Shown: piece by piece, positions 14,124 through 51,000 of the stretch
Position numbering within the stretch: position 1 is the stretch's first letter
Layout: each line of letters opens with the position of its first letter
Assembly (NCBI RefSeq): GCF_001719045.1
Contig: NZ_CP015423.1
Location: 2,626,001 to 2,690,000, forward strand
Source of the DNA: Paenibacillus polymyxa
GTDB lineage: Bacteria; Bacillota; Bacilli; Paenibacillales; Paenibacillaceae
Direction of reading: 5' to 3'
DNA: 64,000 nt
Notes under the pieces: model-generated
What the model was told of the DNA's origin: nothing
Databases searched by the model: none
What the model saw: only the letters and a program-made list of their open reading frames with translations
Made by a program: the position numbers and the translations under genes

Positions 14124-14303
14124 TTACACCAGTTGGGTCTGCTTCCTGGTCTGAAACATACGGTTGTACTGATTAATCAGTTCATCCAAAAACATAGACT
14201 GCTCCAGCACACGGGCATGTCCGAAACCATATAGTCCATAAAGCTCATGCAATCGTTGCCTAGCATCTTCCAACTGTTGATTTAACGTTTCATCTGGATT
14301 CAT
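14124..14303 (-). CDS. Spo0E-like aspartyl-phosphate phosphatase
   Basis: 59 aa, the usual size of Spo0E/YnzD/YisI proteins, which dephosphorylate Spo0A~P and hold back sporulation. The signature S-x-x-L-D-x-L-I is present as SMFLDELINQY, after the helix 'LEDARQRLHELYGLYG', fitting the family's two-helix hairpin. The start at 14303 (MNPDETL) is set by AGGAGGGAATGCGCT just upstream; the frame is open further but without a ribosome site. It lies 140 bp downstream of an RRNPP receptor/pro-peptide pair on the same strand, past a terminator. Co-regulation of sporulation by the peptide system is plausible but unproven. Confidence 0.85.
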   Translation of the reverse strand: MNPDETLNQQLEDARQRLHELYGLYGFGHARVLEQSMFLDELINQYNRMFQTRKQTQLV

Positions 14304-14393
14304 AGCGCATTCCCTCCTAATGAATCTCATTTTAGGTTGAAATGTGGAAATATGGATCGCTATTTTAGCAATCAAAAAGTCAGCATAATATAA

Positions 14394-14421
14394 CAAAAAA
14401 AGACCAGCGTCTAGGCTGGTC
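14394..14421 (-). terminator. Terminator after pro-peptide gene 1
   Basis: GACCAGC..GCTGGTC stem followed on the minus strand by TTTTTTT. Confidence 0.88.
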
Positions 14422-14445
14422 AATAGTAATGAATTAGTGCTCGGA

Positions 14446-14565
14446 TCAAGCTGAACCAATGTGTTCCTGCGGTTTGAATGTGCCAAGGGTCGGATCTTTA
14501 GCCTGAACTGGTAGTACCAGTACAAAGCTAGCTGCTGCCAAGAGCAAAGCCATCTTTTTGATCAT
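14446..14565 (-). CDS. Secreted signalling pro-peptide of RRNPP system 1
   Basis: 39 aa. Starts MIKK, has a hydrophobic core to about residue 20 and a Sec-type cleavage site near VQA, leaving KDPTLGTFKPQEHIGSA outside the cell. The start at 14565 is fixed by a near-perfect AGGAGGTG site 10 nt upstream. It overlaps the last 38 bp of the receptor gene in another frame, the same overlap seen for the second pair at 33.9 kb. Receptor genes followed by an overlapping or adjacent exported pro-peptide are the hallmark of RRNPP quorum sensing (Phr, PapR, AimP types; AloP is the name I recall for Paenibacillus). The mature peptide is probably a short piece of the C-terminal part, re-imported by an oligopeptide permease; its exact ends are unknown. 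Confidence 0.8.
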   Translation of the reverse strand: MIKKMALLLAAASFVLVLPVQAKDPTLGTFKPQEHIGSA

Positions 14566-15922
14566 TTTCTTTCCACACCTCCTGGTAGGTAGAATGATAC
14601 TGAGCCAATATTTCAGGAGCGGCATATGCCCTGAAGCAGTCAAATAAACCTGCACAATTGGCAATAAGTAGTACGTGATTAATTGTACCAGCTTTTTCTA
14701 AAGCGTCTATTAAACATTTGAAGCCATATGAATATCTTCCTTTATTTAGGCTGTATTTAGCCATCTTGTACCAAAACCGTGCATACTGCTGTGGCAAATA
14801 TTGTTGCCTAATGTCAGCAGGGGACGGCTCCTGATACGCCGTAATTTGAGGTTCAAAGCGCTGAAGGATATGATCCACATCAATATGATAACGATTGGCT
14901 GCTTCAATGACGTTTAAGAGTTCGTTGAAAATATATTTTTCGCCTGCCATATATTCTACATAATTGGGCAGGACACTCACATCTCCCGACATCAGCTTGT
15001 TCACGTACGTATTAATTTTTGCCCAATGCTGAAATAAACCCAACCAATGGAGCGTGTCCGGGTCACTCTCCTTGACCCAGCTTAGATCAGCATAGCCTTG
15101 AAGGTGTACTAATGCCTGCTCATGATCTCCCTTCGCATCACAGGCATTAGCACACATCAATTCGGCGTAAGCTATGTATACAAACAGCGGCCTGCTTAGC
15201 TTCTTTTGTGGTTCTTTTTCCTTGCGCTCAGAGTTATGAACCATCTCATAGTATATTCCACCTAGCTGTCCCATCTGCTTTGCATACTTATATACCTTGT
15301 CCCACTGGCTCAATGCTCTGTACACATTCGCCAAATCTTTCAGCCCATCCAGTTGGTCCACTTCATGCAAACGATGGACGAATGATTCAAATTTGGCCGC
15401 TGCGTCGAAATTGAGATTCTGGTCTTTTCCTATCGCAATAGTGAACAAGCGATAATGGCAGAGTGCAAGTCGTTCCGAATGCTGCTGTTTTTCGCCCTCG
15501 GCGATGTTCTCGTATAAGTAAGCCGCTGCTTCCCGATAATCTTGTTCATAACAATCCTCTGCTAATGCAAAGAGATAAGGAATATAGCCCAGATTATCCA
15601 GCAGTACACTTACTACTTTTTGCAAACAGTCTACACGCTGAAACTGCACACAGCGGTACAAGAACGGGCTAATTCTTTTCCAGTTCAGCGGTGCATCTAT
15701 CACACTTTCTTCAATATATCTTTCATAGAAATGGTCTGTTGGTAAATTCATTCCTAACGTAATGCGATCCAATTGGTGCACCGAAATGGTACGATTACCT
15801 GTTATAATACCGCTCACCGTACCCGGATTCATGCCAGCAATGTGTCCAAACTCGGTCATGCTCAAGCCTGCTTGTTTTAGGTATCCTTCTAATTCTGCTC
15901 TAATCTTAGGTGTGATTTCCAT
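14528..15922 (-). CDS. RRNPP-family peptide receptor/transcription regulator 1 (AloR-like)
   Basis: 464 aa. N-terminal XRE-type HTH at about residues 8-60 ('MTEFGHIAGMNPGTVSGIIT' followed by GNRTIS), then an all-alpha region to the end that looks like TPR repeats (for example CYEQDYREAAAYLYENIAEG and GDHEQALVHLQGY). HTH plus TPR of this length is the RRNPP layout (PlcR, NprR, AimR); the AloR/AloP class was described from P. polymyxa as far as I recall. It is a clear paralogue of the protein at 33867-35267: both open M-x5-IRAELE and share LDRI, APLNW/APNWRR, ERLALC(H/Q)YRLFTIA and SGDV/SGSLDVIP(N/Q)Y segments. The downstream pro-peptide gene overlaps by 38 bp. Divergent to the AbrB-like pair, which is a candidate target. 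Confidence 0.85.
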   Translation of the reverse strand: MEITPKIRAELEGYLKQAGLSMTEFGHIAGMNPGTVSGIITGNRTISVHQLDRITLGMNLPTDHFYERYIEESVIDAPLNWKRISPFLYRCVQFQRVDCLQKVVSVLLDNLGYIPYLFALAEDCYEQDYREAAAYLYENIAEGEKQQHSERLALCHYRLFTIAIGKDQNLNFDAAAKFESFVHRLHEVDQLDGLKDLANVYRALSQWDKVYKYAKQMGQLGGIYYEMVHNSERKEKEPQKKLSRPLFVYIAYAELMCANACDAKGDHEQALVHLQGYADLSWVKESDPDTLHWLGLFQHWAKINTYVNKLMSGDVSVLPNYVEYMAGEKYIFNELLNVIEAANRYHIDVDHILQRFEPQITAYQEPSPADIRQQYLPQQYARFWYKMAKYSLNKGRYSYGFKCLIDALEKAGTINHVLLIANCAGLFDCFRAYAAPEILAQYHSTYQEVWKENDQKDGFALGSS

Positions 15923-29446: not shown

Positions 29447-29593
29447 TCATAACTGAAGGCTTTCTTCACTGATTACGGTTGGAACGATAAGCTCAGGAGT
29501 AGTCGTAGGCTTAGCTTGTGTTAAATAGTCTGCTGCCCCCATCATCAGAGCGATGCCGATAAATAGCACGACCCAATTACGATTCTTTTTCAT
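29447..29593 (-). CDS. Small single-TM protein at the end of the DUF4173 operon
   Basis: 48 aa: MKKNRNW, a hydrophobic segment (VVLFIGIALMMGAA), then a Thr/Pro-rich exported tail ending SEESLQL. GAGAGG lies 8 nt before the ATG at 29593 (or 5 nt before the ATG at 29596). It starts about 10 bp after the stop of the preceding gene, so it is probably in its operon. Function unknown. Confidence 0.55.
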   Translation of the reverse strand: MKKNRNWVVLFIGIALMMGAADYLTQAKPTTTPELIVPTVISEESLQL

Positions 29594-29605
29594 CATCTGT
29601 ACCTC

Positions 29606-31919: not shown

Positions 31920-33656
31920 ATGAAACTCCATGCCCAATTTTTACGGCTTCACTCCCACGCAGCTGACAACAAGGACGATAACCATACCATAGAGACGACG
32001 CTGGATGAGCTTGCGGCTATTTTTGACTGTACTCACCGCAACGCCTTGATGATCATTCAGAAAATGGAGCAGCATGACTGGATACAATGGACTCCCCGCC
32101 GAGGCAGAGGTCGTCGCTCCAGTCTGCGCTTCCTCATTCAACCGGAAGACATTGCCGTGCAATCCATGATGCAAGCCATAGACCGCCATGATATCAAACG
32201 CGCGCTGGATGAAATTCGAGTCCATTCACGCTCCTCCACCATGCAGGAGCATTTGCAAGGCTGGTTGCTGAATTATTTTGGGCATCACGCAGAGGTGCGC
32301 AGTGATCAGCAGCAGATCGACACGCTGCGTCTGCCTATTCGCCAGCAGCTCTATACGCTGGACCCGTTGTATTTGAACTGGCTCGCCGAGTCCTTCGTAT
32401 CCAGCCACGTCTTTGATGGTCTGGCCCGCCGGGCGAACGAAAGCGGCGAGATTTTGCCGGGATTGGCGCACGCTTGGGAGGTGGACACCACTCGTACACA
32501 GTGGACCTTTTTCCTGCGTAAAGAAGTGCTGTTTCATAACGGAAAAATACTGACCGCTGAAGACGTCGTCTATACCTTTGAGCGACTGAGTCGGGCGCCG
32601 GGAAGGAGACTTTACCATTTTATCGTCCGGCAAATTCAGCACGTCCAGGCGTTAAGTCCGACGATAGTACGCTTCGTACTAAAGGAGCCGAACGAGCTGT
32701 TTCTATCCTTCCTGTGTACCAGCCGGGCTGCGATTGTGCCGCGTGAACTTAATCAGGTGGGTGAAGCCGCCTTTGGCATCCGCCCTGTCGGTACAGGGGC
32801 TTTCAAAGTCACGGAAATGAACGAAAGCCTGTGTACACTGGAGGCTTTCGCACCTTATTTTCAAGGCCGGGCTCATCTGGACCGAGTGGAAATTGTCCAA
32901 CTCCCATGGGCGACTAAGCTGGAATCGTCGGATACGGAAGACACCGCTTCTTCTTTTCACATTATCCATAATCCCGTATCGGCGGGAGATACGGATACCG
33001 CATGGAGCCAGATTCACTCGGCGGCTTCGGTACGCAAATTTATCACATGTAATACACACAAGGATGGACCACTACGCAATCCAGAAATACGTGCCCGCAT
33101 TGTAGCATGTCTGGATCATCGCTCCCTTCCTCCAGCAGTGGATTCATCTAACGATTCTTATGAACCACTGGCGGCGCTGCAAATTGCTACCATTCCCGAG
33201 TATAAAGCAGACGCAGACCGGGTTGCGGCTCAGCTCGAATCCTGTGGGTATACCTGTAACATCGTGGCTGCATCTATGAACGAATTCAAAAGCTCATCTA
33301 TCCGTATGGAGTCAGACTTAATCATCTTTTCTCTCTTTCGTGACCGTGACGAGCAATTACGCCTGTTTGACTTGTATCTCAATGTATCTGGGCATGTGGA
33401 GCCTCATAGCCGTGTGGATATCGAAAGACTGCTGCGTGAAATTGCACGGGAGGCCGATCATACTGTTAGGGCGCAGCAATTCGAACATATCGAAACTCGG
33501 CTCATGGATGAGCACCAGCTGCATATTTTATATGAAAAGCCCGTTCAGACGGCCTATCTCCCTTCTGTACGTGGCGTATCTTTTAACAGTCAGGGCTGGG
33601 TGGATCTGCGTCATGTCTGGTTTCCGCCTGCTCAACTTCCAGCTCCCCACTCTTGA
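31920..33656 (+). CDS. SgrR-like transcriptional regulator with solute-binding domain
   Basis: 578 aa. N-terminal winged HTH (about 1-110: 'TTLDELAAIFDCTHRNALMI', then 'WTPRRGRGRRSSLRFL') joined to a solute-binding protein family 5 domain without a signal peptide (LDPLYLNWLAESFVSSHVFDG; 'FFLRKEVLFHNGKILTAEDVVYTFERL'; PVGTGAFKV). This is the SgrR family, which senses a small molecule in the cytoplasm. In E. coli SgrR answers to glucose-phosphate stress; in Bacilli such regulators often sit beside transporters. Here the neighbours are a DUF4173 operon and an RRNPP pair, so the target is not clear. Confidence 0.88.
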   Translation: MKLHAQFLRLHSHAADNKDDNHTIETTLDELAAIFDCTHRNALMIIQKMEQHDWIQWTPRRGRGRRSSLRFLIQPEDIAVQSMMQAIDRHDIKRALDEIRVHSRSSTMQEHLQGWLLNYFGHHAEVRSDQQQIDTLRLPIRQQLYTLDPLYLNWLAESFVSSHVFDGLARRANESGEILPGLAHAWEVDTTRTQWTFFLRKEVLFHNGKILTAEDVVYTFERLSRAPGRRLYHFIVRQIQHVQALSPTIVRFVLKEPNELFLSFLCTSRAAIVPRELNQVGEAAFGIRPVGTGAFKVTEMNESLCTLEAFAPYFQGRAHLDRVEIVQLPWATKLESSDTEDTASSFHIIHNPVSAGDTDTAWSQIHSAASVRKFITCNTHKDGPLRNPEIRARIVACLDHRSLPPAVDSSNDSYEPLAALQIATIPEYKADADRVAAQLESCGYTCNIVAASMNEFKSSSIRMESDLIIFSLFRDRDEQLRLFDLYLNVSGHVEPHSRVDIERLLREIAREADHTVRAQQFEHIETRLMDEHQLHILYEKPVQTAYLPSVRGVSFNSQGWVDLRHVWFPPAQLPAPHS

Positions 33657-33690
33657 CGGCAAAAGTGCTCCTTCAAATGCACTTCACATC

Positions 33691-33730
33691 AAAAAAAGGT
33701 ATCCTCTTCTTCATAAGAGAATACCTTTTT
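33691..33730. terminator. Bidirectional terminator between sgrR-like gene and pro-peptide gene 2
   Basis: AAAAAAAGGTAT.CTCTT..AAGAG.ATACCTTTTT stem. Confidence 0.88.
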
Positions 33731-33751
33731 GAATGCCGCTTTCTAGATCCT

Positions 33752-33904
33752 CTAAGCGGATGGTTCAAGGGATGAAAAAGCCCATCCCCCCAACCCATGA
33801 CTGTGGACGTCGCTAGGATCTTCCATAGGGGGAGTAACGGGTGAAAAATTCAATAGGACAAAAACATTAAATGCGAGCAGAGAAAAAACGATCTTTTTTA
33901 TCAT
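33752..33904 (-). CDS. Secreted signalling pro-peptide of RRNPP system 2
   Basis: 50 aa, too short for usual gene callers. Starts MIKK like the first pro-peptide, followed by a hydrophobic core (IVFSLLAFNVFVLLNF) and an exported part ending HGLGGWAFSSLEPSA. A GGAGAGG site lies 12 nt upstream. It overlaps the 3' end of the receptor gene by exactly 38 bp in another frame, the same number as in system 1, and both pro-peptides end in Ser-Ala. A strong terminator follows. The mature signal is expected within the C-terminal part; ends unknown. Confidence 0.75.
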   Translation of the reverse strand: MIKKIVFSLLAFNVFVLLNFSPVTPPMEDPSDVHSHGLGGWAFSSLEPSA

Positions 33905-35267
33905 GGATGTACTCTACCTCTCCAAGTAAGTTTTTATATTCCTCTTTGTCCTCAGAAGTGGCAGTATGCCGATACTTTTCAAATAGTCCTACACATTTAA
34001 TGGTGACAGGATTACCATTCAGCACTACAGAATAGGAAAGACTCTCAAGCAAGAATTTCATGCCTTTGGTATAACGGTGTTTGTTGAGATCATAACAAGC
34101 CATCTCTGCCAAAAATCGTGCATAAAGATCTGCTGACATTTGCTCCGTATAGGTGCCTACCTTGACATGCTGATCTGCAAATGCCTCAATTTGTTTTTCA
34201 AAGTGCAACAGTACATGATCTACATTAAAATCATAACGGTTGGCCGCTACCATAATTTTATGCAACCCCACCAGAATTTCGCCTTCGTTTTTTTCCAAAT
34301 AATCCACATATTGCGGAATCACATCCAGGCTGCCTGACATCAACTGATACAAATACCCGTTGGCCTCAGCCCAGTTGCTACAAAGGGCCTTCAAACGCCG
34401 AGCTTCTTCCGTATCCTCTTGCACCCAGCTCAAATCAGAGTATAGCGATACATACTCCAGCGCCTTCTGATAATCCCCGCGCTCATCCCACACCCCGGCA
34501 CGCAACACGTAAGAGTATACAATATACATAAACAAAGGACCCTTAGGTTCCTTGCCACGCTCCGGTCTTCTGGTATTTCCGTATTTTTGCTCGTATTGTA
34601 CCTTGGCTTTTTGAGCCATTTTTTCAGCAAACCATTCTACTTTATCCCAACGCCGCAAGGAGGCATAGGTATTAGCCAGGTCTCTTAAGGCATCCAGTTG
34701 GTCTGCTTCACCCAGTCGGTCCACAAAGCTTTCGAAGTGTGTGGCTGCCCATAAATTTTCGTCCTGGTCATCGCCAACGGCAATCGTAAATAAACGATAT
34801 TGGCAGAGCGCCAGACGCTCTGAATGTTGGTACTTCTCACTTTCGGAAACATTTTTATAAATAATTGCCGCAGCCTCAAGCTTACCTTCACTGAATAATT
34901 CTTCTGCTGTCTCAAACAAAGCTGGGGCGTATATGAGATAGTCCATCATAAACTCCACGACTTGCTTAATACAATCCAGTTTGTTCAGCTCTGCACAGCG
35001 ATGCAAAAAGGGACGAACCCGTCGCCAATTCGGTGCCGTATTCCGTATAAATTCATCAATGTATAACTCATAGAGGCTCCCTTCTTCAAGCCCCATGCCT
35101 GCACCAATCCGATCCAACAGCAGCATCGCAATCGGACGATTACCGTTAATAATGGCACTGATCGTTCCTGCATTAATACCTGTGTTCTCCCCAAACTTAC
35201 TAATCGTAATTCCTTCTCGTCTGATGTACTGCTCCAGCTCTGCGCGAATTGTGGTTGTTTCCTTCAA
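33867..35267 (-). CDS. RRNPP-family peptide receptor/transcription regulator 2 (AloR-like)
   Basis: 466 aa from a TTG at 35267, chosen since GGGGGTG lies 6 nt upstream and the resulting MKETTTIRAELE aligns without gap to MEITPKIRAELE of receptor 1; a GTG at 35276 is the alternative. N-terminal XRE HTH ('ISKFGENTGINAGTISAIIN', GNRPIA), then a TPR-like helical region (SEGKLEAAAIIYKNVSESEK, RGDYQKALEYVSLYSDLSW). Paralogue of 14528-15922 along its whole length. Intracellular receptor that binds the re-imported peptide and changes DNA binding, by analogy with PlcR/AimR. The pro-peptide gene overlaps its 3' end. Confidence 0.85.
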   Translation of the reverse strand: MKETTTIRAELEQYIRREGITISKFGENTGINAGTISAIINGNRPIAMLLLDRIGAGMGLEEGSLYELYIDEFIRNTAPNWRRVRPFLHRCAELNKLDCIKQVVEFMMDYLIYAPALFETAEELFSEGKLEAAAIIYKNVSESEKYQHSERLALCQYRLFTIAVGDDQDENLWAATHFESFVDRLGEADQLDALRDLANTYASLRRWDKVEWFAEKMAQKAKVQYEQKYGNTRRPERGKEPKGPLFMYIVYSYVLRAGVWDERGDYQKALEYVSLYSDLSWVQEDTEEARRLKALCSNWAEANGYLYQLMSGSLDVIPQYVDYLEKNEGEILVGLHKIMVAANRYDFNVDHVLLHFEKQIEAFADQHVKVGTYTEQMSADLYARFLAEMACYDLNKHRYTKGMKFLLESLSYSVVLNGNPVTIKCVGLFEKYRHTATSEDKEEYKNLLGEVEYIHDKKDRFFSARI

Positions 35268-35480
35268 ATCAGGCACCCCCAGGGATTACTTGCATGATTA
35301 CAATACAAAAAAAGAAAATTCCCGTGAATATTCCCTTAATTATACAAAAGAAAGCCCACTTAGCCAACCGCTCAAGTAAATTTATATCAAAAAATTCAAT
35401 AATTCTCCGAATTGCCGTATACTACGGGGAGGTGAGCCGAACAGCTACACCCAATCGGTACGCAGGAAAGGATACGACAA

Positions 35481-35726
35481 ATGGACAACACCCCTACAAC
35501 AGAACAAGAGATTGCACAATGGATGGTCGCGCAGATCCGTGAAGTGGGCACCCTGAAACAAGAAGATGCAATTGCATATGTACGCTCTGAGTATGGAGAG
35601 TAGTATGTGTTTATAAGCGAGCATGGTCATGTATCTCTGGAAAAAGAAATCAAAAAAGCATTCCGCAAGCTTCATGGTGGCAGAATTGCCTGGGATCGTG
35701 ACGGATTTCTCTGGGCCTGGACTTAA
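35481..35726 (+). pseudogene. DUF6953-like small gene interrupted by an in-frame TAG
   Basis: An ATG with AGGAAAGG upstream starts 40 codons ('EQEIAQWMVAQIREVGTLKQ', ...VRSEYGE), then TAG at 35601-35603, then 40 more codons in the same frame (YVFISEHGHVSLEKEIKKAF, GGRIAWDRDGFLWAWT, TAA at 35724). The two halves read as one about 81-aa protein like those I know as DUF6953 in Paenibacillus, where the position of the stop holds an acidic or polar residue. A single base change explains it. It is followed by a good terminator, so the unit was recently a gene. A truncated 40-aa product or readthrough cannot be ruled out. Confidence 0.7.
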
Positions 35727-40672: not shown

Positions 40673-41476
40673 TCATCCATGAAGCGGAAAACGCTCTGCT
40701 GGATGTTCCGGCAAAATGGACGAGATCAACCGTCGTACAGCCGGATGAGCAGATTCAAAAATCTGATCCTTCTCATCACAGCGCTCGATCAGTCTCCCCT
40801 GCTCCATCACAGCAATGCCATCGCAGACAGCATAAGCTGCCCGAATATCATGCGTGATGAACAGATATGACAATCCAAACGAAGATTTCAGTTCTCCCAG
40901 CAGGGATAAAATATGCATCTGGTGAACCATATCGAGGCTGCTGACGGACTCATCCAGCACGATCAGCTTTGGTTTGAGCGCAATCGCCCGTGCAATGTTG
41001 ATCCGCTGCAATTGTCCGCCACTGAACTGATGCGGATATTTAATCCGATCCTCCGGCTTGAGACCGACCCGTTCCAGTAGGCTTTCGACCGTTCTTTTTT
41101 GTTCCTGCACCGATAACCGTTCGTAATTGTCCAATGGCTCCCCAATAATCTGCCCGGCGGTCATTCGGGGGTTTACAGCAGAGTAGCAGTCCTGAAATAC
41201 GACCTGCATATCCCGTCGCATTCCCCTGCGGACTTGAGGGCTCGCATTATAAATGTCCTGTCCCTGGAACAGCACCTGACCCTCCTGCGGCTTCTCCAGC
41301 CCCAGAATAACCTTGCCCAGCGTGCTTTTACCGGCTCCACTGGTTCCAAGTAAGCCTAGGCAAAACCCACTCTCTATAGTAAGTGAAACGTTAGCCAACA
41401 CAGGGGGGCGTGGTTCAGAACGGCCCAGCCATTTGCGCCTTCCATAGCTATGAGTTACTTTCTTCACTTGTAGCAT
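40673..41476 (-). CDS. nikE: Nickel/peptide-type ABC transporter ATPase (NikE-like), Fur-controlled operon
   Basis: Second ATPase of the five-gene importer. Walker A GTSGAGKS, Q-loop QVVFQDCYSAVNPRMT, signature FSGGQLQRINIARAI, Walker B LIVLDESVSSLD and the His switch. The Q-loop and 'NPRMT' region are typical for the OppF/NikE/CntF subfamily. The ATG at 41476 is preferred, with GGGGAG 9 nt upstream, to the one at 41482. The nik names are by similarity to NikABCDE/CntABCDF; the metal carried is not proven. Confidence 0.85.
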   Translation of the reverse strand: MLQVKKVTHSYGRRKWLGRSEPRPPVLANVSLTIESGFCLGLLGTSGAGKSTLGKVILGLEKPQEGQVLFQGQDIYNASPQVRRGMRRDMQVVFQDCYSAVNPRMTAGQIIGEPLDNYERLSVQEQKRTVESLLERVGLKPEDRIKYPHQFSGGQLQRINIARAIALKPKLIVLDESVSSLDMVHQMHILSLLGELKSSFGLSYLFITHDIRAAYAVCDGIAVMEQGRLIERCDEKDQIFESAHPAVRRLISSILPEHPAERFPLHG

Positions 41477-41520
41477 ACGCATTCGCTCCCCTTTTGAAAG
41501 TGTAACTGTCGAACAGGCGA

Positions 41521-42345
41521 CTAACCACCTACCTGATTCATGCCCCGAATGGACAACTTGGGTCTGACTTGTAGCAGCATTTTGGTATATTCATCCTGCG
41601 GGTGATCGAACAACTGATGGACCTCAGCCTGCTCAACAATACGACCCTGCTGCATGACAGCCACTTCATCCGCCAATTGGGAAATGACGCCCAGATCATG
41701 CGAGATCAGCAAAATGGACGTATTGTATTCCGTACGCAAGCGATCCAGCTCTCTTAGCACCTGTAGCTGATTGACCACATCAAGCGCCGTCGTTGGTTCA
41801 TCCGCAATAACCACTGCTGGGCGCAGGCACATGGAAATGGCGATCATGACCCGTTGCAGCATCCCGCCGCTCAACTGAAACGAATAACGCTTCATCAGCT
41901 TGGCTGGATCGGGCAAATTCATATTTTCCAGAGCCGTTATGGCAAGATCACGGGCCTGTCGTTTGGTTAATCCGGTGTGCGTGCGGACCGTTTCCATAAA
42001 CTGAGCTCCGATCGTATACACTGGCGTAAAGGCGCTCATCGGATTTTGCATAATAAATGCGATTTCCTTGCCCCGAATACGCCGCATTTCCTCGGCCGCC
42101 ATTCCGTTCAGTTCACGCCCGTTCAGACGGACACTACCTTCCACGTCCATCGTCTGGCGATCCAGCAGTTGGAGCAACGCTTTACAAGTCACCGTTTTGC
42201 CGCTTCCACTCTCACCGACAAGACCCAGAACTTGTCCCCTTTTCAGCTCAAAATGAGTTGGCTCCAGCAGAGATACCGCCCCGGCATCGGTTTTGAGCTT
42301 CACCTGTAAGCCGCTGACCTCCAGCACCTTCGCCCTGTCGTCCAT
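41521..42345 (-). CDS. nikD: Nickel/peptide-type ABC transporter ATPase (NikD-like), Fur-controlled operon
   Basis: 274 aa. Walker A GESGSGKT, Q-loop AFIMQNPMSAFTPVYTIG, signature LSGGMLQRVMIAIS, Walker B VVIADEPTTALD, H-switch LLISHDLGV. These are OppD/NikD/CntD-type residues. The C-terminus is shorter than in true oligopeptide OppD proteins, which carry a Cys-rich tail, and this favours a nickel-type role. It is separated from nikE by 44 bp and from the permease by 20 bp. Confidence 0.87.
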   Translation of the reverse strand: MDDRAKVLEVSGLQVKLKTDAGAVSLLEPTHFELKRGQVLGLVGESGSGKTVTCKALLQLLDRQTMDVEGSVRLNGRELNGMAAEEMRRIRGKEIAFIMQNPMSAFTPVYTIGAQFMETVRTHTGLTKRQARDLAITALENMNLPDPAKLMKRYSFQLSGGMLQRVMIAISMCLRPAVVIADEPTTALDVVNQLQVLRELDRLRTEYNTSILLISHDLGVISQLADEVAVMQQGRIVEQAEVHQLFDHPQDEYTKMLLQVRPKLSIRGMNQVGG

Positions 42346-42365
42346 CGTTGTAACTCACTCCTGTT

Positions 42366-43199
42366 TTACTGACGTTTGGCAATTCCGTATCGGTCGGACA
42401 GCGCCTCCCCCAATATATTGAAGGCCATCACCACCACCAGAATCATAACTCCCGGATAGATCATTAATTCCGGATGACTGCGAATGTATCCCGTTCCCTC
42501 ATGAATCATGGCTCCCCATTCAGGGGTCGGCGGCTGAATGCCTAGACCAAGGAACGACAACGCGGAAATATCCATGATCGCCCAGCCCATTTCCAGCGTA
42601 CCAATGACCACAATCGGCCTTAGTACATTTGGAATGATATGCCGGCGGATAATGGCCCCTGAGGAGGACCCGCTAATCCTTGCGGCAGCTATAAAATTTC
42701 GTTCTTTCAGACTGACGACCATATTGCGGCACATTCTGGCATAATACACCCACTGCACCATCATTAAAGCAAGCAGCACCTGCATGAGGCCCGGCCCAAA
42801 AATACCGACAATGCCCAGCACAAGCACCAAATTCGGAAACGCCATAATACCTTCGCAAAACCGCATCAACACACTATCGACCCAGCCACCCACATAACCT
42901 GCAAGCGACCCGATCACAACGCCGATACTAAGCGAGGACAGGAAAATTAATGTCGCAAAGCCGAGGGAAATCCGCGCTCCATACAGCAACCGGGATAAAT
43001 TGCATCGACCCAAATGATCGGTCCCCAGCCAGTATTCTTTCGAAGGTCCCTCCAGCTTGTGCAGTAAATTGACTTTAACCGGATCATGGGGAGCCAGCCA
43101 AGGAGCTAGCGCCATAATGATAAAAAGAGCAACCAGTACGACAGAGCAGACCACGATTACCTTTTGACTTTTGAACATTGTACGCAACCTTATCATCAC
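42366..43199 (-). CDS. nikC: Nickel/peptide-type ABC transporter permease (NikC-like), Fur-controlled operon
   Basis: 277 aa, about six membrane segments. DppC/NikC-family parts: 'APWLAPHDPVKVNLLHKLEG' then YWLGTDHLGRCNLSRLLYGARISL, and an EAA loop with AAARISGSSSGAIIRRHIIPNV. Start is GTG at 43199 or the ATG at 43196; the latter overlaps the nikB stop as TGATG, so translation is coupled. Confidence 0.88.
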   Translation of the reverse strand: MMIRLRTMFKSQKVIVVCSVVLVALFIIMALAPWLAPHDPVKVNLLHKLEGPSKEYWLGTDHLGRCNLSRLLYGARISLGFATLIFLSSLSIGVVIGSLAGYVGGWVDSVLMRFCEGIMAFPNLVLVLGIVGIFGPGLMQVLLALMMVQWVYYARMCRNMVVSLKERNFIAAARISGSSSGAIIRRHIIPNVLRPIVVIGTLEMGWAIMDISALSFLGLGIQPPTPEWGAMIHEGTGYIRSHPELMIYPGVMILVVVMAFNILGEALSDRYGIAKRQ

Positions 43200-44140
43200 T
43201 GCTCTGCTCGTCCCTTCGATGAAATTCGGGGGTCCATATACAAATGCACCAGATCAACGAGCAAATTGCATACGATGAACAGGCATGCCGCCAAAAACAC
43301 ATAGCATTGTATGACGGGAATATCCCGGTTAAAAATCGCTTCCACAAAATAACGGCCAAACCCGGGCCATGAAAACACCTGCTCCACAATAATTGTTCCG
43401 GTCAGAAGCTTGCCCAGATTCATACCCATACTTGTAATTAGTGGAGCAATGGCAATTTTCAGTACATGCTTGAGCATGATCACCCGCTCACGGATTCCTC
43501 TAGTTCTGGCATACTGCACATACGTTTCCTGAAGCTGCTCCAACACACTGGAACGCAGCAGGCGCGTATATAAAGCAATCAGAACCAGCGACAGGGTTAA
43601 CGTGGGCAACACCAGATGCTGCCACGTTCCTCGCCCCTCTACAGGGAGCCAATCCAATCGGACAGAGAAAAAGAAGATTAACAAATATCCCAGCCAGAAC
43701 TGGGGTATAGACGCGCCAAAATATGAAATTCCTCGACTAAGCATGTCGATCCAGCCATTTTTACGCATCGCCGCCAGCACGCCCAGCGGAATACTTACCA
43801 CAATAGATAGCAACATACTGCTCACAGCCAATTCAAAAGTGGCGGGCAGCCGAACCTTGACCTCATCCCACACCGGCTTGTTGGTTAGATACGAAGTACC
43901 AAAGTCCAATTGACTGATTCTTTGAAGTGTATGCATATACTGCGTCAGCAAAGGCTGATCCAGCCCGAACTCATGTCTTTTCTGCTCCAGAATCTCTGGA
44001 GTAGGGTAAATATGAGCAGCCGTCAAATAGGCCTCGGCCGGATCAACTGGTGAAATATGAATGAGTGCAAAGGTAACGAGGGTGGCAAAGAGAACAATAG
44101 GAATGACCGCTACCATTCGCTTCCCGATATAGCTGATCAT
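43196..44140 (-). CDS. nikB: Nickel/peptide-type ABC transporter permease (NikB-like), Fur-controlled operon
   Basis: 314 aa with about six membrane segments. DppB/NikB-type parts: N-terminal MISYIGKRMVAVIPIVLFAT, FALIHISPVDPAEAYL, the periplasmic-type loop before WIDMLSRG, and the EAA loop YARTRGIRERVIMLKHVLKIA; the C-terminal 'TIIVEQVFSWPGFGRYFVEA' is a typical family motif. It follows the binding protein gene by 46 bp. Confidence 0.88.
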   Translation of the reverse strand: MISYIGKRMVAVIPIVLFATLVTFALIHISPVDPAEAYLTAAHIYPTPEILEQKRHEFGLDQPLLTQYMHTLQRISQLDFGTSYLTNKPVWDEVKVRLPATFELAVSSMLLSIVVSIPLGVLAAMRKNGWIDMLSRGISYFGASIPQFWLGYLLIFFFSVRLDWLPVEGRGTWQHLVLPTLTLSLVLIALYTRLLRSSVLEQLQETYVQYARTRGIRERVIMLKHVLKIAIAPLITSMGMNLGKLLTGTIIVEQVFSWPGFGRYFVEAIFNRDIPVIQCYVFLAACLFIVCNLLVDLVHLYMDPRISSKGRAEQ

Positions 44141-44186
44141 GAGTTGTCCTCCTATCCTGTAAACTACCGTTACCTATCGGCTTCAG

Positions 44187-45812
44187 CTACTTTCCGATTT
44201 CAATTCCCTCAAACGGATTTTCATCCCGATTAGCCGGGAATACAAAGTTTGTAATCTTTTTCTGGTACACTGCCGTTTTCTTAATATACGAAATAGGCAC
44301 AATGGCAGATTGCTCCTGGAGCGTCTTCAGAATCGAAGCATACAGCTCTTGGCGCTTGGTTTCATCTGTCGATGAGAGCGCTTGGTATACTTGCTGATCC
44401 AGGTCTTTCTTCATCGGAAGGGCGCTCAGCACCTCGGAAATTCCGAAGCTCTTCTTAGCAATGACATTAATAAAGGAATGCGGATCATAAGGCGCACCAT
44501 AGTTGTACCAGAAGTACAGATCAAACTGGTTGGATCTAAGGCGCTTAATTTGAACCGTCAGCTCCAGTCCGGTCAGGTTTACTTTGACACCCAGTTCTCC
44601 CCATTCAGCCTGAATGGTTTCAGCCATCGCCTTTTGGATCGGATCAGTCTTATCAAAAATCAGCTCAAAATCCAGCTGTTGTCCGTCTTTTTCCCGTACT
44701 GTACCGCCTGCAGGCAGCTTCCAGCCAGCCTCATCCAGCAACGATTTGGATTTTTCCACATCATAGCCAACAGGCTGTAAGTTTACATTCGTATACGGAT
44801 AGTTTTTGGATAAAACCGTATCCGCTGTTTCCTCCAGACCTGAGGTTACACCTTCCACCATTGCCTGCTTGTTAAAGCCATGCTGGAGTGCCAGACGTAC
44901 CCGAAGGTCTGCCAGCTTGGGATTGGATGAGTTGAGTAACAGGCTTCTTGTACCGACAGGCTCGGACAGCGTGGTAACATACTGATTCGTGTCGCGAAGC
45001 TGTTTGAAAGCATCCAGACTAATGACACCCTCTCCATAAATCAGATCCAGATCGCCTTTTTCAAAGGCCATTACACGGGTTTCGCCATCGGGAATGATTT
45101 TTACCGTAATTTTATCCACCTTTGGTGCAGTGCCCCAATAATTTGGATTACGCTTAAAGGTTGCATATTCATCTTGCTTGTATTCATCCAGCATCCAAGG
45201 TCCTGTACCTACAGGTTTCTTGATTCCTTTGGACGTATCTCCATCATCCGGGAACCCCGCTTCACCCAGAAAACGGAACGGGCGAACGACAGACAAATCC
45301 TGAAGCACTGGGTAGTATGGTTCTTTGAGTGTCATTCGGAAGGTGCTGTCATCTACAGCTTCAGTTTTGTCGAGAACGCCTACTATACCAAGCCAGCTGT
45401 GCGTTTTCTCATTTTTCATAATAGCGTCAAAGTTCTTTTTGACAATGGCTGCATTAAATAGCGTTCCATCCGAAAATTTCACACCTTTGCGCAGCTTAAA
45501 CGTATATATCTTGCCGTCCTTGGAAATAGTCCAGGATTCAGCCAAAGCAGGCTCCAGCTTGCCTCCTTGCTTGTAGCTGACTAACGGCTCATAAACCATG
45601 GATTGTGCAAAAAGTTGGGAAGGATTGTATACGTGAGGATTCATCGTACCAATGTCACGCGGCCACGATAGCGTGATCGACTTTTCATTGGCAGCTCCGT
45701 TAGTAGAGGTGGATGCAGGTGTGTTCTCCTGCTTCGCGCAGCCCAAAACAACGGATAATAAGAGGAGCACCACCAACATAAGGGTGGCAGTCTTGCGGTG
45801 TCGAACGGACAT
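44187..45812 (-). CDS. nikA: Nickel-type (NikA/CntA-like) substrate-binding lipoprotein, Fur-controlled operon
   Basis: 541 aa. Lipoprotein signal with VVLGC. The first fold shows 'RDIGTMNPHVYNPSQLFAQS' and MVYEPLVSY, a motif that I recognise from NikA/CntA (metal-chelate binders) rather than from dipeptide binders. Later 'NAAIVKKNFDAIM' and VGTGPWMLDEYKQDEY fit the same group. The ATG at 45812 has GGGGAAATACATTG upstream. A promoter (45866-45894) and a perfect 7-1-7 Fur box (45840-45854) lie directly in front, so iron-dependent repression is likely. No opine-metallophore synthase genes are seen nearby. Confidence 0.85.
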   Translation of the reverse strand: MSVRHRKTATLMLVVLLLLSVVLGCAKQENTPASTSTNGAANEKSITLSWPRDIGTMNPHVYNPSQLFAQSMVYEPLVSYKQGGKLEPALAESWTISKDGKIYTFKLRKGVKFSDGTLFNAAIVKKNFDAIMKNEKTHSWLGIVGVLDKTEAVDDSTFRMTLKEPYYPVLQDLSVVRPFRFLGEAGFPDDGDTSKGIKKPVGTGPWMLDEYKQDEYATFKRNPNYWGTAPKVDKITVKIIPDGETRVMAFEKGDLDLIYGEGVISLDAFKQLRDTNQYVTTLSEPVGTRSLLLNSSNPKLADLRVRLALQHGFNKQAMVEGVTSGLEETADTVLSKNYPYTNVNLQPVGYDVEKSKSLLDEAGWKLPAGGTVREKDGQQLDFELIFDKTDPIQKAMAETIQAEWGELGVKVNLTGLELTVQIKRLRSNQFDLYFWYNYGAPYDPHSFINVIAKKSFGISEVLSALPMKKDLDQQVYQALSSTDETKRQELYASILKTLQEQSAIVPISYIKKTAVYQKKITNFVFPANRDENPFEGIEIGK

Positions 45813-45839
45813 CAATGTATTTCCCCTTTTCTATATATG

Positions 45840-45894
45840 TGATAATGATTATCATAATCATATTTAGAATAGGTACCACGTTCCATTTTGTCAA
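45840..45894 (-). promoter_or_regulatory. Fur box and sigma-A promoter of the nikA-type operon
   Basis: -35 TTGACA (45889-45894), 17-bp spacer, -10 TATTCT (45866-45871). Downstream of the predicted start point lies TGATAATGATTATCA (45840-45854), a perfect 7-1-7 inverted repeat equal to the Bacillus Fur consensus; Zur and PerR boxes differ (TCGTAAT and TTATAAT half sites). Confidence 0.8.
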
Positions 45895-45954
45895 CAACAT
45901 TCGACAAGTCATCCTCTTATTTATTTTAAATTTGTAGAATATTAAATTTATGGC

Positions 45955-46728
45955 TTAATTCGCCAACGTTTGAAACAGAGTACGTGTGTACTCATGCTGT
46001 AACAAGTCTTTATCCCATTCCTTAAATATTTCCACGATCTCCCCCTGAACCATAACGGCAACGCGGTCACAAAACTGACGAGTAGATTGGAGATCGTGAG
46101 TGATGAATAGGTAGGACAACTCACGTTCCTGCTGCATTCTCTTAAGCATGCCCAGCACGGAAAACTGCGTTGTCGTATCCAGATTGGCGATCGATTCATC
46201 GAACAAGATAATATCCGGCTTCACCGCCAACGCTCGGGCAATACATACCCGCTGTTTTTGCCCGCCACTCAGCTGTGCTGGGTATTTTTCCAGACTGTCA
46301 GTCTCCAATCCTACCGATTCCAATAGGGACAGACAAATATCCAGCGCCTGCGCTTTTCGTCCGGGAAAATAGTTGTGGATTGGCTCCTCCAAAATATCTC
46401 GTATGGTCATGCGAGGATGGAGCGAGGACGACGAATCCTGTGCGACCAGTTGGATTCGTTTGTACAGATGGATATCCTTCATCCTTCCGGTGTGAATGGG
46501 CTGGTCATCCAGCCAAATCTCTCCTGAAGTCAACGACTCCAGCCCTAGAATACATTGTGCCAGCGTGCTTTTGCCACTTCCACTTTCTCCAACCAGTCCG
46601 AGACATTCCCCCTGTCGTAGCTCCAGACTCACCTTCTTCACGGCCTGCTCGCTATCTTGCGTGCTGAACCAGCCTTTTCTCCGTTTGCGGACAGGGTATG
46701 CTTTGGTCACATTCTTCAATTCCAGCAT
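45955..46728 (-). CDS. Nickel/cobalt-type ABC transporter ATPase (second of pair), B12-riboswitch operon
   Basis: 257 aa. Walker A GESGSGKST, Q-loop LVAQDSSSSLHPRMT, signature LSGGQKQRVCIARAL, Walker B IILFDESIANLD, H-switch LFITHDLQS. OppF/NikE subfamily. The ATG at 46728 overlaps the upstream ATPase stop (TGATG). The Fur-controlled operon begins downstream, 143 bp further on the same strand. The DES-type Walker B is shared with nikE (40673), showing that the operons are related. Confidence 0.87.
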   Translation of the reverse strand: MLELKNVTKAYPVRKRRKGWFSTQDSEQAVKKVSLELRQGECLGLVGESGSGKSTLAQCILGLESLTSGEIWLDDQPIHTGRMKDIHLYKRIQLVAQDSSSSLHPRMTIRDILEEPIHNYFPGRKAQALDICLSLLESVGLETDSLEKYPAQLSGGQKQRVCIARALAVKPDIILFDESIANLDTTTQFSVLGMLKRMQQERELSYLFITHDLQSTRQFCDRVAVMVQGEIVEIFKEWDKDLLQHEYTRTLFQTLAN

Positions 46729-47645
46729 CACTGGTGCATCCTCCCTTCCGGGCTCATCTCCAACACTCGATCTGCTATGCGGCTCATACCCTGGCGATCA
46801 TGTGAAATCAACAATATGGTGAGATCAAAGTCTTCTCTCAATTGTTGCAACAATGCCAGAACCTTGTCGCGGTTGATAACATCCAACGCCGTAGTAGGCT
46901 CATCGGCAATAAAGAGGCTCGGACCGGAGCTTAACATTGCAGCCAGCAGCACCCTTTGACACATGCCTCCGCTTAGTTCAAAAGGATATGACGACAAAAT
47001 ATGCTCAGGATCTGCAAACCCAACCTTTCGGAGCAGAGAGCGCAAATAGGTCTCCCGCACTGGAGTAGCGCCTCCTCTGGCTATCTCCGTGGCACGGCTC
47101 AGCATCTGCCGCATCCGTGGCAGCACGCCCAGCGGGTGGACTTGCTGCGGTGCAGTGTGGGATGGGACAGCATCAGCGTGCTCCGGCTCCATTTGGTCAT
47201 GCGGCATCCGACGCCGCCCGTGCAGTCTAAGCGTGTCCATCAGCTGGGCGCGGACAGTCCGGATCGGGTTCAACCCGCTCAGCGATTGTTGAATGAGCAG
47301 GGCAATATCCTCTCGGCGCAGCCTTTGCCAGCGCCGTTCCTGGAACGGGAGAATGTCTTCCCCGTTATAGTAGATACGCCCTTGCGTAACATTAATACCT
47401 GGCTCCAGCATGCCTGCGATTGCGTGTGCGGTCAGGCTCTTGCCGCATCCGCTCGGTCCGGTCAGGGCCACAATCTCCCCTGAATATATGGAAAAGCTCA
47501 CATCACGCAGCAGTGGTTTGCTCCCGCTTCCGCTTGCTCCTACGCCTGTACGGCAGATTTCCAAATGTTCCACGTGTAACAACGGTTTTCGCCCTGCCAC
47601 TTGCTCTATCGTATCCTTGCACCCAAGGGCTGTTTGATCCTCCAC
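46728..47645 (-). CDS. Nickel/cobalt-type ABC transporter ATPase (first of pair), B12-riboswitch operon
   Basis: 305 aa. Walker A GPSGCGKS, Q-loop LLIQQSLSGLNPIRTV, signature LSGGMCQRVLLAAML, Walker B LFIADEPTTALD, His switch LISHDRQG. Between the Q-loop and the signature there is a 40- to 50-residue insertion (RRMPHDQMEPEHADAVPSHT region) rich in His and Pro (several His residues), not present in the other three ATPases. The GTG start overlaps the permease stop by 1 bp. Confidence 0.85.
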   Translation of the reverse strand: MEDQTALGCKDTIEQVAGRKPLLHVEHLEICRTGVGASGSGSKPLLRDVSFSIYSGEIVALTGPSGCGKSLTAHAIAGMLEPGINVTQGRIYYNGEDILPFQERRWQRLRREDIALLIQQSLSGLNPIRTVRAQLMDTLRLHGRRRMPHDQMEPEHADAVPSHTAPQQVHPLGVLPRMRQMLSRATEIARGGATPVRETYLRSLLRKVGFADPEHILSSYPFELSGGMCQRVLLAAMLSSGPSLFIADEPTTALDVINRDKVLALLQQLREDFDLTILLISHDRQGMSRIADRVLEMSPEGRMHQ

Positions 47646-48460
47646 TATTTGGCCGCTCCCTTTTCCGAAAAGCGGTCGCCCAAAAGCTGGCAGGCAAGTA
47701 CGAACAACATAATCGCCAAGCCCGGGAAAATCATGACATGCGGAGCCACCTGAAAATACGAGGTTGCATCATGCAGCATCACGCCCCACTCTGGCTTGGG
47801 CGGCTGTACACCCAGTCCAAGAAAGGACAGCCCAGCGATCATCAGCACCACGCGTCCGATATCCCATACCGCATAAACCAACAACTGCGGCAACGCTTGT
47901 GGCAATACATAACGGCTCAGTATACGTACGTGTGAATTGCCGGATAAACGGGCATACCTAACGTAGTCCTCCTGACAGGCTTTTTGAACCAGACTACGGA
48001 CATACCGAACATAGCCCGCCCACCGTACCGCAATAATCGCAAGGGTCATGTTAACAAAACCTGGACCCAAAATGCCCACAATTGCCACCGTTAAAATAAT
48101 ATCAGGAAAAGCCAGTACGCCGTCGATTCCACGCATAACCAGCTGATCCACGCGTCCGCGCACATAACCAATGAGCAACCCTATAGGCAGACTGAAGCAC
48201 AACGTAGCTACAGTAATTGTACATGCGATTAGCACGCTCATCCGAATCCCGTAAATTAGCCTTGACAGCACATCCCGACCCAGATGATCCGTACCGAAAG
48301 GATATTTCCGACTGGGTGGTGCCAGACGGTTCAAAAGATCCACTTGAAGAGGATCATGAGGAGCGACCCATGGAGCTAATAACCCAAGCAGCACGATCAG
48401 ACCAAACAGTACGCCTCCTGCCAGCAAGCTCCCTTGAAAGGAAAGCCGTATCTTTTTCAT
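47645..48460 (-). CDS. Nickel/cobalt-type ABC transporter permease (DppC/NikC class), B12-riboswitch operon
   Basis: 271 aa. The ATG at 48460 is preferred (AGGGGGAAGCTGAAA upstream; the longer frame runs through the upstream gene). 'APWVAPHDPLQVDLLNRLAPP' and YPFGTDHLGRDVLSRLIYG are NikC/DppC family motifs; the EAA loop reads YARLSGNSHVRILSRYVLPQ. Paralogous to 42366-43199. Confidence 0.87.
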   Translation of the reverse strand: MKKIRLSFQGSLLAGGVLFGLIVLLGLLAPWVAPHDPLQVDLLNRLAPPSRKYPFGTDHLGRDVLSRLIYGIRMSVLIACTITVATLCFSLPIGLLIGYVRGRVDQLVMRGIDGVLAFPDIILTVAIVGILGPGFVNMTLAIIAVRWAGYVRYVRSLVQKACQEDYVRYARLSGNSHVRILSRYVLPQALPQLLVYAVWDIGRVVLMIAGLSFLGLGVQPPKPEWGVMLHDATSYFQVAPHVMIFPGLAIMLFVLACQLLGDRFSEKGAAK

Positions 48461-48474
48461 TTTCAGCTTCCCCC

Positions 48475-49404
48475 TTAACGCAAACGCAGCCTCGGATCTA
48501 TCGCCGTCTGGACCACATCCACCAAACACTGAACTCCTACAATTAAAAATACAGCAAAAATAACATACCCCTGAATCACCGGATAATCTCGCTGTGTAAT
48601 CGCATCTATAAAATACTTGCCCAACCCCGGCCATGAAAAAATGGTCTCTACGATGACATTACCTGCCAGCATAAATGATAGATTGGTACCTAGCAGTGTA
48701 ATTATAGGCAGAACCGCATGCTTAAATATCTCAAAAAACAGGATATGCATACGGGAAAAGCCTCGAGCCTTCGCTGCTTTCACAAAATTCCGGTCACCCA
48801 GCTCCAGCATTTGAGCGCGCAGTACACGTGCTTGCACAGCTCCCAAGCCTGCACCAAGAGTCAGCGCTGGGAGCACTAAATGTGTCCAATCCTCCCTTCC
48901 CATGGATGGGAGCCAGCCCAAGCGAACGGAGAATAGATAGATCAACAGAAACCCAAGCCAAAAAGAGGGGATCGACGATCCCAGCAGGGCGAACAGCCTG
49001 CCCAGACGATCCAATGGGCCGCTAATTTTTAGCGAGGCAGCCAGCCCCAACCCCAGCGTAAGCACCGTCATGACGGCAAAGCCCGCAGCAGCTAGCTCCA
49101 CAGTAGCAGGCAGTCTGTTCCACAGTTCGGCTAGCACAGATTCCTTGGATACATACGAGGTGCCCCAATGCCCTGTGAACACATCCCGCAGCCAGTTCAC
49201 ATATTGAATATGAAACGGTTCGTTTAAGCCTAGTTCCTGCCGTAGCGTCGTCAACGCCTCCTCAGAGGCAGGGACATTATGCGCGGTGAGCAAAATGGTA
49301 GCAGGGTCTCCAGGAGCCAGCCGCATCAGTACAAAAGTCAGCGTGGATACAACGAATACAATGATGAGCAGCTGCGCCACACGTTCCAGTATAAAACGAA
49401 TCAT
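48475..49404 (-). CDS. Nickel/cobalt-type ABC transporter permease (DppB/NikB class), B12-riboswitch operon
   Basis: 309 aa, six membrane segments. MIRFILERVAQLLIIVFVVS start, VLMRLAPGDPATILL, an EAA loop with KAAKARGFSRMHILFFEIFK, and 'NVIVETIFSWPGLGKYFIDA'. The start codon is 15 bp after the binding-protein stop. Paralogous to 43196-44140. Confidence 0.88.
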   Translation of the reverse strand: MIRFILERVAQLLIIVFVVSTLTFVLMRLAPGDPATILLTAHNVPASEEALTTLRQELGLNEPFHIQYVNWLRDVFTGHWGTSYVSKESVLAELWNRLPATVELAAAGFAVMTVLTLGLGLAASLKISGPLDRLGRLFALLGSSIPSFWLGFLLIYLFSVRLGWLPSMGREDWTHLVLPALTLGAGLGAVQARVLRAQMLELGDRNFVKAAKARGFSRMHILFFEIFKHAVLPIITLLGTNLSFMLAGNVIVETIFSWPGLGKYFIDAITQRDYPVIQGYVIFAVFLIVGVQCLVDVVQTAIDPRLRLR

Positions 49405-49419
49405 AGGATACGCCGCTCG

Positions 49420-51000
49420 TTATTCCGCAATATCGGATTGCGCTGTAATGTAGTAATACTCGATCGGATGGGGTGTAAAACCCTCTACCCCTTTTTTCAC
49501 ACCAAACACATTGTCAGGATGCACAATGAAGGACTGTGGCAAATCCGTATTGATGATATCCAGCGCTTGTAGTGTCACAGCATTACGCTGCGCTGTATCC
49601 TTCGCCAGCTTCAAGCTGTTAAGAATACTCTCCAGCGGTTTGGAACTATAACGGCTTACATTGGCTTCGCTTTGCGAAGAATAAAACATGTCCATAAAAT
49701 ATTGTGGCTCTCCTGTATGAGCAGTAAGCATACTGTACATAGCAAAATCCCAATCGTTTTTGGTCAACGCCTCGTCGATATTTTCCACCTTGCGAATCTT
49801 GACCTGGATTCCCTCTTTCAGCAATTGGCTTTGGATGACCTCAGCCATAACAGAGAGCTCTGGACGCTGAGGAAAAGTCAGCAGCGTAACCTCGAACGGC
49901 TTGCCTTGCTTAGTCCATGTCCCTTGGGCGTCCTTCTGCCAGCCATCCTTCGTTAACAGCTGATCCGCCGTTCCGTCCAGCGCTTTACGCTCAACTTTAC
50001 CGAAGGGAAGAATGCTCGGGAACGGACTGCTTGCTTCCGTACCGAAGCCCCTCATGACGGCGCTCACAATCGATGTGCGTGGAATCAGGCTGTCCACCAC
50101 CTTACGGTTCGCCGCATCCTTGAATACTGGGGATTCCATATTATACACGAGCATATGGGTGCGCAAGGAGGGAGCCGACAGCACCTGTAGCTTGTCGTTC
50201 TTTTTCAGTACCTCTGCGTTATCAACCGGAATATCCGTCGCTACATCCACCTCGCCGGATTGCAGCGCCATCAGGCGCGAATTCCCGTCCGTAATGAACT
50301 TCATCGTCGCTTCAGCCAATCGTGCCTTCTCGCCCCAATATCCGTCATAACGCTCTACGATCAAGGATTGGTCCTTGTTGAACGCTTTAATTTTAAAGGC
50401 GCCTGTCATCGCTGGGTAACTCTGCTCATCTTTCATCGATGCCACATCCAGTACAGTCGTCGATGGATCAGCTAGATTGGACACCAGCGCCGCATTCGGC
50501 TGGTTTGTCGTGATCTTTAAGGCCAGCGGGCCGCTTACATCAATGGACTTCACATTCAGTAAATCCTTCGCCAGATGGCTTTTCTCGATAGAGCGTAGCA
50601 AAGATGCTTTTACACTTGCTGCATCCATACTTTTTCCATTATGAAAAGTGACTTTATCCTGCAAGCTGAACGTCCAAACTGTAGGACTATCCTGCTTCCA
50701 CTCCTTTGCCAGCCAAGCCACAGGCTCCAGCTTTTCATTCAAACGTACCAGTGTCTCACCTGCACCGGATCGCATCACATCCCAGCTATTATCTCCGTGT
50801 GGGTCAACGCCTGACGGTTTCCATGTATACGCCATTACCAGCTTTTTACCTGTAGCCGTTTGTTGTGCTGACGCGTTCTCATCTTTGCCGGAGCTATTCG
50901 ACGTCTTATTGCTAGTACATCCCGAAAGAGCCATAACTGCCAGTAACAGCATCACCCCTGTACATATCAACCATGAGCGCCTGCTATGATTGCTAATCAT
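49420..51000 (-). CDS. Nickel/cobalt-type substrate-binding lipoprotein, B12-riboswitch operon
   Basis: 526 aa. Lipoprotein signal with MALSGC. Family 5 binding-protein features: YTWKPSGVDPHGDNSWDVMR, 'TVWTFSLQDKVTFHNGKSMD', GAFKIKAFNKDQSLIVERYDGYWG. Closer to NikA-like than to OppA by length and by the short N-lobe. The mRNA leader holds a cobalamin riboswitch and terminator, so expression should fall when B12 is plentiful; cobalt (or a corrinoid/cobalt chelate) is the most likely cargo. AGGGGG ribosome site upstream. Confidence 0.86.
   Translation of the reverse strand: MISNHSRRSWLICTGVMLLLAVMALSGCTSNKTSNSSGKDENASAQQTATGKKLVMAYTWKPSGVDPHGDNSWDVMRSGAGETLVRLNEKLEPVAWLAKEWKQDSPTVWTFSLQDKVTFHNGKSMDAASVKASLLRSIEKSHLAKDLLNVKSIDVSGPLALKITTNQPNAALVSNLADPSTTVLDVASMKDEQSYPAMTGAFKIKAFNKDQSLIVERYDGYWGEKARLAEATMKFITDGNSRLMALQSGEVDVATDIPVDNAEVLKKNDKLQVLSAPSLRTHMLVYNMESPVFKDAANRKVVDSLIPRTSIVSAVMRGFGTEASSPFPSILPFGKVERKALDGTADQLLTKDGWQKDAQGTWTKQGKPFEVTLLTFPQRPELSVMAEVIQSQLLKEGIQVKIRKVENIDEALTKNDWDFAMYSMLTAHTGEPQYFMDMFYSSQSEANVSRYSSKPLESILNSLKLAKDTAQRNAVTLQALDIINTDLPQSFIVHPDNVFGVKKGVEGFTPHPIEYYYITAQSDIAE

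Follow-up and report, generated by a model that had tools for sequence, protein, structure and literature searches.

The stretch of Paenibacillus polymyxa DNA analysed here, 64,000 nucleotides of contig NZ_CP015423.1 (positions 2,626,001 to 2,690,000; hereafter the window), belongs to a 5.76 Mb one-contig genome and carries on its minus strand a receptor gene overlapped at its 3′ end by a small open reading frame (ORF) for a pro-peptide. By sequence comparison, the pair belongs to AloR/AloP, an RRNPP-type quorum-sensing family of Paenibacillaceae. The elements of the locus, in window coordinates, are as follows:

35339..35367, minus strand: candidate promoter of the receptor-peptide operon (TTGGCT-17-TATAAT), a single consensus match.
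33867..35267, minus strand: aloR-type receptor gene, 466 amino acids from TTG 35267, with an N-terminal helix-turn-helix (HTH) domain (helices at about residues 7-75) followed by an all-helical superhelix resembling tetratricopeptide repeats (TPR).
33752..33904, minus strand: aloP-type pro-peptide gene, 50 amino acids, comprising a MIKK start, a hydrophobic core at residues 5-24, a linker, SHGLGGW and a nine-residue tail.
33782..33802, minus strand: proposed pheromone core SHGLGGW (codons 35-41), synonymous-biased and the point at which outgroup pro-peptides end.
33755..33781, minus strand: C-terminal extension AFSSLEPSA (codons 42-50), whose sequence and length vary.
33685..33745, minus strand: intrinsic terminator (hairpin plus U run) just 3′ of the pro-peptide gene, with the convergent gene 31920-33656 facing it.

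The pro-peptide ORF reads MIKKIVFSLLAFNVFVLLNFSPVTPPMEDPSDVHSHGLGGWAFSSLEPSA and shares 38 nt with the receptor ORF. The longest receptor ORF begins at GTG 35276 (469 amino acids), but the alternative start at TTG 35267 is favoured because two nucleotides are inserted between the two start codons in one ortholog (L029), in agreement with the end coordinate of the initial annotation. That annotation had also described a MIKK start shared with the pro-peptide of another module in the window (14446-14565), a hydrophobic core and a terminator just after the gene, all of which are found. The terminator folds at -22.6 kcal/mol with a z score of -5.5, none of 200 shuffles being equally good, and its form is kept in all 15 orthologous loci; a simple consensus scan of 33600-35600 returned seven terminator-like sites, this one not among them. 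As a consensus match, the candidate promoter is no better than chance (one found versus 3.7 on average in shuffles), and its weight comes instead from conservation, both elements (TTGGC, spacer, TATAAT) being preserved at all 15 orthologous loci. Closely downstream lies GAATATTC, retained in 13 of the 15 orthologs and a possible operator. An operator common to the receptor paralogs of the same genome was rejected, since GAATATTC, the only shared motif sought, is absent from the 185 nt upstream of each of the 15 paralogs. Because the two genes overlap and are bracketed by a conserved promoter-like element and a terminator, they probably share a single mRNA.

Analysis of the orthologous loci reveals that the pro-peptide ORF lies directly 3′ of the receptor gene in all 15, with the 38-nt overlap in 14, and is open in every one, encoding 50 amino acids in 14 loci and 47 in L035, where the receptor frame is disturbed and the pro-peptide intact. 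The whole window has 224 ATG ORFs with lengths of 30-60 codons; two pass a simple hydrophobicity filter for signal peptides, the pro-peptide being one, and the second lies at 29447-29596 on the minus strand (49 amino acids, MMKKNRNWVVLFIG...). Selection was estimated by parsimony mapping of changes on the receptor tree for 14 of the 15 orthologs, L035 being omitted. Specifically, codons 35-41 (SHG[L/M]GGW) show 12 synonymous and two nonsynonymous changes, a ratio of nonsynonymous to synonymous rates (dN/dS) of about 0.05 (binomial P 1.4e-6), and the tail codons 42-50 give about 0.65 (P 0.09). Values for codons 1-13, 14-24 and 25-34 are 0.82, 0.78 and 0.31, and the non-overlapping part of the pro-peptide as a whole gives 0.42 (P 9e-7). 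The strongly selected part of the pro-peptide is the SHG[L/M]GGW core. Additionally, a protein database search returned three clusters of the pro-peptide, none of them named and one of them P0003. Given the open frames, the synonymous bias and the database clusters, translation of the frame and selection on it are very probable; looking in relatives for stop codons or drift in this frame, put forward with the initial annotation as a way of refuting it, turned out in its favour.

The conserved core ends nine residues before the C terminus of the pro-peptide. The remaining tail measures nine residues in 14 orthologs, six in L035 and five in database protein P0003, in which SHGLGGW is followed by TFFMP only. 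Sixteen outgroup loci were inspected in other Paenibacillaceae (L057, L060-L074), and an HG-core pro-peptide could be read in nine; eight of these terminate exactly at the column of Trp41 and L072 one residue later, as illustrated by the ends ...FLTHGSGGW (L061), ...FEHGMGGY (L057) and ...FTHGVGGL (L060). The other seven outgroup loci show no HG-core pro-peptide, L065 and L073 having 25-residue hydrophobic stubs. A related receptor clade from other Paenibacillaceae (L063-L065, L067, L068, L073) has no HG-core pro-peptide downstream, and a spo0E-like frame lies downstream of the receptor in at least L063, L067 and L068. Within the genus, the pro-peptides of 14 further receptors (L037-L050) carry DHG[L/F]GT at their extreme end, that of L036 HGHG and that of L058 HGLGG.

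Because the core is under strong purifying selection, the tail is not, and the outgroups stop at the Trp position, the best reading of HGLGGWAFSSLEPSA is a pheromone core, SHGLGGW, with an added, apparently expendable C-terminal extension. The active part would then probably be the internal SHG[L/M]GGW and not the whole 15-residue tail. The initial annotation had implied the entire Gly/Trp/His-containing tail as the signal; its last nine residues vary as weakly constrained sequence does and are missing in the outgroup pro-peptides read. Two observations weigh against an expendable extension and in favour of a mature ligand that includes it, a 15-residue HGLGGWAFSSLEPSA-like peptide: every one of the 15 orthologs has a tail, in which Ser44-Ser45 are invariant, and some published pro-peptides (AloP4, 9, 15 and 16) may have a mature part exceeding six residues, further processing being conceivable (PMC7425212). 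Such a ligand is nevertheless unlikely, given the relaxed dN/dS and variable length of the tail beside a nearly invariant core, and the lack of a tail in eight of the nine outgroup pro-peptides.

For a core followed by an extension, the simplest history would be one in which the pheromone was already complete at the C terminus when the P. polymyxa complex added 6-9 residues behind it. An extension in this position calls for a second cut, for carboxypeptidase trimming or for receptor tolerance of extra residues. We tentatively suggest that a C-terminal-type Alo pheromone became internal, so that release of SHGLGGW might need a second, possibly regulated carboxy-side cut that is unneeded in relatives; if true, this cut would be an extra control point in signal maturation. 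The core pattern CAYGGNNTNGGNGGNTGG was rejected as a diagnostic of the ortholog on its own, as it matches in 109 of 394 family genomes, most of these sites being uninspected, versus 15 genomes with the ortholog.

A small secreted or membrane peptide serving a different function, such as a bacteriocin or modulator unrelated to the receptor, is a far less probable explanation of the ORF. A signal-like N terminus and conservation, which are all that the sequence itself displays, would suit such a peptide; against it stand the invariable placement directly after the receptor, overlapping in 14 orthologs, and the fact that this position and an HGxGG-like core are common to pairs across the family. 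Hardly credible is an orphan receptor followed by a chance frame, or one decaying after loss of an old stop codon: degenerate aloP genes do exist, and L003 and L008 of the same genome look frameshifted, but none of the 15 frames contains a stop and the core is synonymous-biased.

The receptor is paralogous, as the initial annotation held, the genome containing 16 full-length paralogs including the target, to which the other 15 are 34-48% identical. Orthologs at 85-98% identity occur in 14 of 74 other genus genomes, the next genus match standing at 49%, so that the ortholog group covers 15 of 75 genus genomes, all of the P. polymyxa complex. In a tree of 50 receptors the orthologs group together (100/100) and join receptors of other Paenibacillaceae (98/94), separate from 11 of the 15 paralogs in the same genome. 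The window itself holds a first RRNPP module at 14124-15922 on the minus strand, with a 464-amino-acid receptor, an overlapping pro-peptide (14446-14565) ending EHIGSA and a spo0E-like gene (14124-14303) directly downstream.

At the domain level, HTH_3 and TPR_2 matches of the receptor in Pfam fall below curated cut-offs, and Pfam at 1e-3 gives no match for receptor or peptide. HTH families of PHROGs match the receptor N terminus (best 5.3e-6), PADLOC matches occur only above 0.005, and a sequence search of the PDB with the receptor gave nothing beyond weak matches, to HTH chains and others, with no RRNPP chain among them. The AlphaFold2 model (mean predicted local distance difference test score, pLDDT, 88.6) adopts a helical N-terminal domain and a TPR-like superhelix, with NprR and Rap among its structural matches at about 10-11% identity in structural alignments. 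PlcR ranks 28th in Foldseek against this model (template modelling score, TM, 0.18-0.25), and neither AimR nor PlcR is among the 50 structural matches listed in a second comparison.

Alo-type receptors are carried by plasmids too. Homologous receptors were found in 33 plasmid records, mostly from Paenibacillus and Brevibacillus (best about 46%), including a 45 kb plasmid of P. polymyxa ATCC 842. Brevibacillus phage SecTim467 (KT151957; L059 2600-4520) encodes a receptor 30% identical to the target, whose annotation says no more than DNA-binding protein; upstream of it lies a spo0E-like gene and downstream an overlapping 45-amino-acid ORF without an obvious signal, and this phage is unnamed in the main text of PMC10075063. 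Among viral structures, the unnamed library entry S5MC02 (E 8e-13, TM 0.60, 425 amino acids) matches the receptor model best and is perhaps another phage-borne AloR-like receptor.

The genes, frame conservation, core selection, the tailless outgroup pro-peptides and the homology and fold class of the receptor all come from direct analysis, and the pair quite likely works as an AloR/AloP quorum-sensing system of the RRNPP kind, in which an exported and cut pheromone, SHGLGGW or a piece of it (HGLGGW), regulates through the receptor. The N-terminal signal would export the pro-peptide, which would be cleaved outside the cell, the 6-9 residue extension of the ortholog group being dealt with by one of the three routes named above. 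The active heptapeptide, or HGLGGW, would be re-imported, presumably via an oligopeptide permease. Once in the TPR-like pocket, it may alter DNA binding by the N-terminal HTH and so change transcription of the operon and other genes. We infer secretion, processing, uptake, binding and direction of regulation by analogy with the AloP13 experiments (PMC7425212), and target genes likewise are conjectural. The analysis supplies a concrete, testable ligand candidate for an Alo system of the P. polymyxa complex, bacteria that promote plant growth and possess unusually many peptide signals. Moreover, the comparison suggests that a pheromone precursor can acquire a C-terminal extension while its core persists, which bears on signal maturation.

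The nearest candidate targets are the promoter region of the operon itself, with GAATATTC, and a divergent DUF6953 gene at 35481-35726 on the plus strand. An in-frame TAG at codon 41 interrupts this gene, whose two halves each match DUF6953, and intact copies (at least 81 residues) adjoin 12 of the 14 other orthologous receptors at changing distance; none was found within 1.5 kb of the remaining two. As a fixed partner of the pair it was therefore rejected. A spo0E-like gene was likewise rejected as a local target, a search for Spo0E-type motifs within 1.5 kb downstream being negative for the target receptor and positive for five of the 16 receptors of the genome. The convergent gene 31920-33656 encodes an SgrR-type regulator with an SBP_bac_5 domain, and inspection of the ORF list by eye places two ABC-transporter operons of peptide or nickel type 5-16 kb away (40673-51000, minus strand).

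The AloR/AloP family was described in 2020, with pro-peptides of 32-50 amino acids downstream of most receptors (Voichek et al., PMC7425212). The target pair shows the same combination of AloR homology, an ORF of this length with a hydrophobic N terminus directly downstream, and a predicted HTH and TPR architecture. Its receptor is 35% identical over 456 residues (E about 1e-90) to receptors beside SHGRGG-ending pro-peptides in four genomes, which served as stand-ins for AloR13, SHGRGG being the published mature pheromone of AloP13 (PMC7425212). Secretion, processing and a transcription change via the receptor were shown for AloP13; the Alo13 receptor activates a promoter that the peptide shuts off (PMC7425212). 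Identity of the target with Alo13 was rejected, as the SHGRGG pro-peptides sit at another locus in four genomes that also carry the target ortholog. Moreover, the SHGRGG pattern is unmatched in the target's own genome, where the receptor closest to those beside SHGRGG is L013 (58-60%, versus 35% for the target). L013 (C1 2207635-2209011), whose pro-peptide ends GHGTGA and which has a spo0E-like motif downstream, probably corresponds to Alo13, its pheromone having changed.

The claim that the module was unreported does not extend to the family. Since P. terrae NRRL B-30644, one genome of the 2020 survey (PMC7425212), carries the target ortholog with its pro-peptide (L034/L056), and the group spans 15 of 75 genus genomes, the survey tables probably list the pair already. 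In the literature text searched, figures and supplements lying outside the search, SHGRGG occurs in PMC7425212 only, and SHGLGG, HGLGGW and SHGMGG have no occurrence, the added tail not being searched separately. The kind of system is already known, and what was not found in print is the SHG[L/M]GGW core.

AloR is grouped with AimR in PMC12700828. The target resembles the arbitrium receptors in a partial match to the NCBIfam AimR model (residues 15-108, E 5.6e-4) and differs from them in that this match, at 19.1 bits, stays below the model cut-off of 70 and in being chromosomal. The receptors of Phr peptides are Rap phosphatases without an HTH, whereas an HTH is indicated in the target receptor at about residues 8-57. 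On the peptide side, the proposed position of the mature sequence inside its pro-peptide is shared with PhrH and PhrK of Bacillus, which are released by two cuts (PMC7425212). The target differs from Alo systems that include a spo0E-like gene, none being found downstream of it, and its ortholog group is distinct from Alo13. Collectively, it matches Alo13 in having a homologous receptor and, next to it downstream, a short HGxGG-core pro-peptide, in the many paralogs per genome and in its occurrence in Paenibacillaceae, but departs from it in the placement of the core, which in Alo13 occupies the extreme C terminus and in the target pro-peptide is followed by nine further residues.
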